A model generated the notes under the pieces. It was given only the letters and a program-made list of their open reading frames with translations. It did not search any database and was not told where the DNA came from. A stretch of DNA of 64,000 nucleotides. Origin: Candidatus Nanoarchaeia archaeon. Its GTDB lineage: Archaea > Nanobdellota > Nanobdellia > Woesearchaeales > JANQNE01. Below, piece by piece: positions 9,483 through 27,159 of this stretch; position 1 is the stretch's first letter; the number at the start of each line of letters is the position of its first letter. Location: positions 1 to 64,000 of the forward strand of contig JANQNE010000009.1 of NCBI GenBank assembly GCA_028279725.1, given 5' to 3'. The position numbers and the translations under genes were made by a program.

Positions 9483-9587
9483 TGGGCCCGCGGAGACTTT
9501 CATGCCAAAGGCATGATCCTTCAACAATTTGAACTCCGGACCAATCGATTATCAGTCGATCACTCCACCAGACTAAGCTACGGGCCC
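9483..9587 (-). tRNA. tRNA-Ile (GAT) with T-loop intron
   Basis: Acceptor GGGCCCG/CGGGCCC, anticodon stem ATCGA/TCGAT with loop CTGATAA (GAT, Ile) and T stem CGGAG/CTCCG pair fully. The T loop starts TTCAAAT and is then interrupted by 31 bases that fold as CATGCC-TTT-GGCATG before the second T-stem strand. Removing it leaves a normal 74-base tRNA. The exact junction is ambiguous (loop TTCAAAT or TTCAAGT). The anticodon loop is uninterrupted. A TATA box (TTTTAAATA on minus, 9614-9622) lies about 30 bases upstream. Confidence 0.93.
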
Positions 9588-25634: not shown

Positions 25635-26963
25635 TCAGCCCTCAAACTTCTTGAAAGCTAATACAGTATTATGGCCGTAAAATCCGAAAGAATTGGATAA
25701 TGCAACTCTAACATCTTTATCTCTTGCATTCCTCATTGAATAGTCAAGATCACATTTTCTCATCTCGATCTCCCCAGGTGTAAGTTTTTCCTCATCTCTG
25801 GGATCCAGATAAGGATTAATGTCAGGATTCTCAAGATTCTTTGTTGGATGTACAGCTCCATCCTCTATTGTCTTGACTGTAACAACTGCCTCTAATCCGC
25901 CTGCAGCTCCTAATGTATGCCCGATCATAGACTTGGTTGAGTTAAGAGAAACGTTGTAAGCACCTTCTCCTAATGCTTTCTTGATAGCTAAAGTCTCAGT
26001 AGGATCATTCAGCTGTGTAGAAGTTCCATGAGTATTGATATAATCAACCTGATCAGAATTTATATTTGCTCTTTTCAAAGCATCAGTCATCGCTTTAGAT
26101 GCATACACCCCATCCAGTCTTGGAGCTGTCATCCCATCAGGATTTCCGTCGCATGTTCTTCCATAACCTATTAATTCAGCACGTATCTTTGCTCCTCTTT
26201 TTTTAGCATGTTCAAGCTCCTCCAGTACAAGAACTCCAGAACCTTCTCCGATGACAAAACCGCTCCTGTCTTTATCAAAAGGCCTTGACACAGCAGCTGG
26301 GTCTCCGTTTCTTCTTGAAAGTGCCTTTGCATTTCCAAAACCAGAATAAGTTAGTGAAGCTGCTGACTCTTCCGTTCCCCCACAAAGCATTATCTCAACA
26401 TCACCCATCATGATATCTTTATACCCTTCAATTATACTTGACGCTCCTGAAGAGCATGCAGATGAAACTACAGCTCCCTCTGTTCCATGAAGATGAAGAT
26501 GCTTCGCAATATTCCCTGAAGCAGCATCCTGTATTGTCATCGGAACTACAAAAGGGCTGACCTTGCTCATGCTAAATCTCTGCATCCTTTCTTTCTGCTT
26601 CTCAACTTCTTTTAGTCCGCAAAAGCCCACACCCATCAGCACTCCAGTCCTTTCTCTTGTCTCGTCTGGTCTATAATCTAATATGCCAGAATCTTCAACA
26701 GCCTGGCATGCTGCATCTAAAGCATACTGCGAAAAAGGGCTCATCCTACTTGGAGCTTTTTTTTCAATGCCACACTTTCCTGCATTAAACTTATAATCTT
26801 TGAACAAGGATCCTATCTTAACATCATAATCACTAAGCCAGGGACATATATCTGTAACATCACTTATAGAAGTCTCTCCATTAAGTAGATTATTCCAAAG
26901 CTCATCAACACTCTTTCCCAATGGTGTTGCAGCTCCCAATCCGGTTATTACGACTCTTCTCAT
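25635..26963 (-). CDS. fabF: Beta-ketoacyl-ACP synthase II-like enzyme (FabF family)
   Basis: 442 residues, slightly longer than bacterial FabF. Catalytic Cys170 lies in SSACSSGA, the first His in NTHGTSTQLNDPTE and the second in SMIGHTLGAAGG, so the Cys-His-His triad is intact. A GEGSGVLVLEELEHAKKRGA block is also typical. The family condenses malonyl-ACP with acyl-ACP in fatty-acid or polyketide synthesis. No acyl carrier protein, FabG or FabD gene is nearby, which makes it an orphan here. Its presence in an archaeon suggests transfer from bacteria. It is followed by the tRNA-Ser gene upstream on the same strand. Confidence 0.93.
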   Translation of the reverse strand: MRRVVITGLGAATPLGKSVDELWNNLLNGETSISDVTDICPWLSDYDVKIGSLFKDYKFNAGKCGIEKKAPSRMSPFSQYALDAACQAVEDSGILDYRPDETRERTGVLMGVGFCGLKEVEKQKERMQRFSMSKVSPFVVPMTIQDAASGNIAKHLHLHGTEGAVVSSACSSGASSIIEGYKDIMMGDVEIMLCGGTEESAASLTYSGFGNAKALSRRNGDPAAVSRPFDKDRSGFVIGEGSGVLVLEELEHAKKRGAKIRAELIGYGRTCDGNPDGMTAPRLDGVYASKAMTDALKRANINSDQVDYINTHGTSTQLNDPTETLAIKKALGEGAYNVSLNSTKSMIGHTLGAAGGLEAVVTVKTIEDGAVHPTKNLENPDINPYLDPRDEEKLTPGEIEMRKCDLDYSMRNARDKDVRVALSNSFGFYGHNTVLAFKKFEG

Positions 26964-27008: not shown

Positions 27009-27159
27009 CGCCCAGACAGGGACTTTCAAGTGCAAGCTTGAAACTCGCACAATTTGAACCCTGATGACCCGAAGGTCACTAGATATTTGGTATTGTAAGT
27101 TTCATATCCACTTACAGTAGATAGCAATCTAGCGCAATACCAGATTATGCGATCTGGGC
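27009..27159 (-). tRNA. tRNA-Ser (GCT) with two introns
   Basis: Acceptor GCCCAGA/TCTGGGC with G discriminator, anticodon stem CTAGA/TCTAG, long variable arm TGACC-TTCG-GGTCA and T stem CAGGG/CCCTG all pair. Anticodon loop TTGCTA (GCT, Ser) is followed by a 37-base intron with a TGTAAGT/ACTTACA hairpin before A38. The T loop TTCAAAT is followed by a second, 30-base intron with stem GTGCGAG/CTTGCAC. Removing both leaves an 84-base class II tRNA. The T-loop intron shares its ends with that of tRNA-Ile. TATA box (CTTTTTAAAG on minus) at 27184-27193. Confidence 0.93.

Follow-up and report, generated by a model that had tools for sequence, protein, structure and literature searches.

The tRNA-Ser(GCT) gene of the window (the whole stretch of DNA analysed here, 64,000 nucleotides) contains two introns. 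The second of them, in the T loop, is very probably a bulge-helix-bulge (BHB) intron at position 59/60 which is cut by the single splicing endonuclease (EndA) of this archaeon, with rejoining of the exons, and which is portable between tRNAs. The parts of this locus and of the tRNA-Ile(GAT) locus in the same window are given below. R1 is a covariance model built from nine T arms carrying 59/60 inserts, R2 a larger one built from 110 sequences; the slash in a bulge marks the cut.

27010..27159, minus strand: tRNA-Ser(GCT) gene, three exons and two introns; once spliced, folded by ARAGORN as tRNA-Ser(gct)
27122..27159, minus strand: exon 1, positions 1-37
27085..27121, minus strand: intron 1, canonical, at 37/38, 37 nt; given by ARAGORN as i(39,37) once the T-loop intron is removed
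27053..27084, minus strand: exon 2, position 38 to A59, with the variable arm, the 5' T stem (27059-27063) and TTCAAA (27053-27058)
27055..27058, minus strand: 5' half of the predicted BHB centre, TTCA, exon positions 54-57, pairing with 27025-27028; position 57 covaries across relatives
27023..27052, minus strand: T-loop intron (intron 2) of 30 nt, at 59/60, matched by R1 and R2
27025..27028, minus strand: 3' half of the predicted BHB centre, TGAA, intronic, followed by the bulge AG/T
27010..27022, minus strand: exon 3, with T60, the 3' T stem and the 3' acceptor strand
27009, minus strand: discriminator G73 of tRNA-Ser(GCT)
9484..9587, minus strand: tRNA-Ile(GAT) gene with a single intron, at 59/60; cut short by ARAGORN, 26.7 bits and thus below the cut-off with Rfam
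9497..9527, minus strand: tRNA-Ile T-loop intron, 31 nt; 59.1 bits with R1 (E 4.6e-12, Ile being in the R1 training set)

The unspliced tRNA-Ser(GCT) gene was detected neither by ARAGORN nor by Rfam. Removal of both introns in silico yields an 83-nt product which, together with G73, makes a complete tRNA-Ser(gct): the ARAGORN fold shows acceptor, D, anticodon, variable and T arms, and the acceptor stem has seven of seven pairs. The 37-base intron at 37/38 and the 30-base T-loop intron that had been proposed in a preliminary description of this DNA are thus borne out, since splicing them leaves a textbook tRNA-Ser. The T-loop intron, ttgtgcgagtttcaagcttgcacttgaaag, scores 53.2 bits with R1 (E 1.7e-10; Ser is among the R1 training sequences) and 49.5 bits with R2. 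A group I intron reading was set aside at a length of about 30 nt.

The preliminary description had also placed a BHB site in the T loop, with a central helix of five pairs, TTCAA:TTGAA. This is the minimum-energy fold for Ser. However, cutting in this register leaves an 8-base loop, and the tRNA-Ile intron is unable to form the fifth pair; the register was therefore rejected. A 7-base T loop results from a register with a 4-bp centre, TTCA:TGAA, flanked by the bulges AA/T and AG/T, i. e. the arrangement of 3-nt bulge, 4-bp helix and 3-nt bulge known for archaeal BHB motifs. If each bulge is cut between its second and third base, the standard loop TTCAAAT results. Hence the BHB site itself is upheld by in silico splicing and by the covariation described below, whereas its register had to be changed. 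What had been read as a common start of the Ser and Ile introns, TTCAAAT, is actually the exon T loop at standard positions 54-60. The 10-mer TTCAAATTGT occurs twice in the window, in the Ser and in the Ile T loop, but by itself this is weak evidence, as two or more matches were also obtained in 10 of 100 shuffles. The start that the two introns seemed to have in common is exonic, and their common end TGAA follows from complementarity to it; such shared ends reflect constraint and not demonstrated kinship.

Introns of this kind are found well beyond the window. In the same order, R1 gave matches in 104 of 193 genomes at E <=0.01, the weakest matches being counted without individual vetting. 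R2 gave matches in a second order (29 of 103 genomes at 1e-4) and in a sample of the phylum (82 of 371 genomes at 1e-5); among the matches listed, all of the latter belong to the same class. Flanking sequence was retrieved for well over 100 matches, and only loci whose T and acceptor stems were both intact were retained. With three or more of the four central pairs formed, 142 introns from 78 genomes satisfied these demands, and most tRNA isotypes are represented among them; the search of the genome and its relatives suggested earlier was thus productive on both levels, with at least seven tRNAs affected in this genome. Seven pattern matches (L031, L032, L033, L034, L037, L038, L039) were discarded as chance, being without a T stem. 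ARAGORN recognized 3 of the 142 candidates unspliced and 127 after removal of the 59/60 intron, so that excision restores a canonical tRNA for Ser and for the great majority. When the excision was shifted by 8 nt or more, recognition fell to at most 20, while shifts from -4 to +2 nt were tolerated. Recognition therefore establishes an intron in the T loop, and its exact cut rests on the BHB geometry.

The central helix is supported by the sequences of the relatives. All four central pairs (TTCA:TGAA type) are present in 132 of 143 candidates; because TGAAAGT ends had gone into the training of the model by which most loci were chosen, conservation of the bulge is inflated. The bases at exon position 57 and intron position -6 are A:T in 120 cases, G:C in 11, G:T in 4 and other combinations in 7 (n=142), and C at -6 is strongly associated with G57 (Fisher p 9e-12). 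This covariation supports the predicted helix. In alignment A3, 93.2% of the cells are paired compared with 73.7% after shuffling, double changes number 275 compared with 81, and sliding the partner by one column lowers pairing to 66% or less; A3 was fitted to the model, and cleaner evidence comes from the Fisher test, whose sequences were not fitted. In the intron helix beside the bulge, pairs are formed in 80-95 of 128 introns (50-61 in shuffles). The minimum-energy fold contains the central helix in 82 of 142 cases, but not for Ile and Arg of this genome. Nearest-neighbour energies assign little stability to such short helices flanked by bulges.

The genome contains one EndA gene, which encodes both Pfam domains in 180 aa from a TTG start. 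Over its length the protein is similar to that of M. jannaschii (1a79, E 6.6e-34) and to chain 3iey_A (E 1.7e-34); the catalytic chain of 3iey was assigned to Nanoarchaeum equitans via its NEQ-labelled partner chain. A Tyr, a His and a Lys visible in the sequence are candidates for the catalytic residues of this enzyme family. A second EndA subunit was not found in the genome, which is 95.8% complete, so that such a gene could be missing from the assembly; 169 of 174 same-order genomes with a match have exactly one EndA copy. A single gene for a catalytic subunit of about 180 aa without a second subunit is what an alpha4 enzyme calls for, and EndA is likely to be a homotetramer like that of M. 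jannaschii. According to a review, relaxed BHB introns are efficiently removed only by (alpha-beta)2 and epsilon2 enzymes (PMC6379350). The strict BHB motif predicted here fits a single-subunit EndA.

For cleavage, enzyme stoichiometry, ligation and the spread of the introns we infer the following course. In the precursor the T stem would form and exon UUCA (54-57) would pair with intron UGAA, with the 3-nt bulges AA/U and AG/U on either side. The single EndA, probably as a homotetramer, would cleave the two bulges; joining the exons again into the 7-base T loop UUCAAAU would fall to a ligase, presumably RtcB. EndA would remove the 37/38 intron too. Almost every tRNA has UUC(A/G) at 54-57, and hence an intron ending in (C/U)GAA-AG should be spliceable in almost any T loop; 59/60 introns may in this way be able to move between tRNA genes.

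At least seven tRNAs of this genome carry a 59/60 intron: Ser, Ile, probably Arg(GCG), Ala, Asp, Pro and Val. This inventory was compiled by searches (R1, R2 and direct reading) and is a lower bound, as a few tRNAs may be missing from it. The three strong R1 matches in the genome, Ile, Ser and the probable Arg(GCG) at C6:91774, were all in the training set; R2 and direct reading supplied the other four. Besides the two loci in the window these are:

G000:C6:91774-91821: intron of the probable tRNA-Arg(GCG), with a core related to that of Ile; R1 match (Arg in the R1 training set)
G000:C8:103243 (contig C8; L050 1440-1760), minus strand: tRNA-Ala(TGC), directly downstream of the 16S rRNA 3' end, with 37/38 and 59/60 introns
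Contig C7: tRNA-Asp(GTC) with a 59/60 intron
Contig C2: tRNA-Pro with a 59/60 intron
Contig C8: tRNA-Val(TAC) with a 59/60 intron, its central helix with one mismatch

The tRNA at C6 is probably, with some uncertainty, an Arg tRNA with anticodon GCG, as judged from a canonical 37/38 cut and from G73; the labels first given to it, Asp and, by ARAGORN, Cys, were dropped for this anticodon. Clustering of the 59/60 introns on a single contig was rejected because of the copies on three other contigs, C2, C7 and C8.

The preliminary description regarded the shared ends of the Ser and Ile introns as the mark of one intron family that had spread among tRNAs. A possible, though rather unlikely, alternative to any spread is convergence: introns of independent origin would all have the ending (C/T)GAA, which pairing with TTC(A/G) requires. 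The T loop would then account for the shared ends, and in line with this only 36 of 142 introns start with TTG. The cores of the introns, trimmed by one base at the start and six at the end, were compared by local alignment in 6903 pairs. Most pairs are unrelated; with a score of 4, the cores of Ser and Ile are at background (shuffle mean 4.7). For this pair membership in one family is thus not supported, the common end being dictated by pairing to the exon. The nearest core to that of the Ser intron belongs to a tRNA-Thr intron of another genome (G011; score 14).

Other pairs speak against convergence. The Ile and Arg-GCG introns of this genome have related cores (score 14) with GAAGGATCA..CCTTTGG in common, 16 core bases in all; the alignment of introns proposed earlier therefore fails for the pair it was based on and succeeds for this one. 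A score of at least 12 was reached by 67 of the 6903 pairs, compared with 1 in a reversed-partner control that preserves composition and hairpins. Pairs from the same genome number 8, whereas 0.8 are expected under permutation of the genome labels (maximum 6 in 1000). Related cores that lie in different tRNAs and score at least 12 amount to 53 between genomes (1 reversed) and 7 within genomes (0 reversed), where a few pairs of "different isotype" may be mislabelled, since the labels are from ARAGORN and some are doubtful. In genome G092, adjacent tRNA-Val and tRNA-Gly genes with differing stems have near-identical introns. Similar introns in different isotypes, as expected of transposed introns, are thus present both here and among the 78 genomes. 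These comparisons support spread of introns between different tRNAs in general, though the Ser/Ile pair is not an instance of it.

A more tentative extension, which we regard as rather doubtful, is that T-loop introns form a mobile family throughout the clade, which would insert at 59/60, for example by reverse splicing and then recombination, into a nearly universal T-loop target, would be served by a single-gene EndA and would include a subgroup with a TTCAA hairpin. The T-loop-like motif TTCAA lies inside several 59/60 intron cores (e. g. L056, L066, L082, L086). It was found internally in 18 of 142 introns compared with 3.8 in shuffles, but as this is only 1.8 times the count of the reversed motif, we make no functional claim for it.

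Two further readings are far less probable. The 59/60 introns could stem from circularly permuted tRNA genes, whose halves in Thermofilum pendens and a red alga are likewise joined at 59/60 (PMC3218864); however, all genes seen here have the normal order, and the intron cores resemble short hairpins rather than leader/trailer sequence, so that we give this origin very little credence. Least probable of all is retention of the insert in an extended T arm or a decayed gene copy, for although T stem and intron helix form one stable rod in seven of seven cases in this genome, retention would wreck the T loop of the tRNA-Ala beside the 16S rRNA and of a tRNA-Ser(GCT) for which no second gene was found in the search-based inventory, the exon stems are intact, and the covariation of exon 57 with intron -6 points to selection for splicing.

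Both the 59/60 site and the spread of introns from tRNA to tRNA are already published for other archaea. Position 59/60 is among the known non-canonical sites, and non-canonical BHB introns are reported to be abundant in Crenarchaeota and Nanoarchaeota, where they have been described together with alpha2beta2 enzymes (PMC4090602). The introns studied here are like these in position, BHB motif and coexistence with a 37/38 intron, but occur with a single EndA gene and a strict BHB. The Thermoproteales, for which transposition of tRNA introns has been described (Fujishima et al. 2010), are, as far as summarized in PMC4033280 and PMC4090602, similar in that like introns occur in different tRNAs of one lineage; here the site is the T loop, the clade is another one and most pairs have diverged. 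In Asgard archaea, 92-95% of the tRNA genes are interrupted (PMC11291895), and many introns are likewise non-canonical, some being missed by standard gene finders, in a lineage different from that of this genome. Circularly permuted tRNAs have the same T-loop junction (PMC3218864), unlike the genes here in their order.

A literature search, which had most subscription journals outside its scope, returned no report on tRNA introns of DPANN/Woesearchaeota. The intron models of tRNAscan-SE 2.0 cover Crenarchaeota, Euryarchaeota and Thaumarchaeota (PMC8450103). In the archaeal class studied here, which to judge from gene content and the size of the order probably belongs to DPANN, near Woesearchaeales, 59/60 introns are unusually abundant. 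ARAGORN misses nearly all tRNAs that carry them, and Rfam often does so as well, so that genomes of the class may be scored as tRNA-deficient. The results further suggest that a single-gene EndA is apparently able to handle introns outside the anticodon loop, given a strict BHB, which bears on the debate over enzyme type versus intron position. At the T-loop site nearly all tRNAs share one exon half of the splice motif, which makes the portability of introns between them amenable to testing.

Some tRNAs of relatives (L061, L063, L071, L098) have an apparent extra insert in the D loop, which would bring the number of introns to up to three per gene. The 37/38 intron of tRNA-Ser(GCT) (27085-27121) resembles those of relatives (L091, L115) in the pattern GAAAC.TAC.ATA.C, a conservation that seemingly exceeds the needs of splicing alone. 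The tRNA-Ser gene is adjoined by a beta-ketoacyl synthase gene (25635-26963, minus strand), whose closest matches in a genome scan are bacterial, at about 42% identity, which suggests gene transfer.
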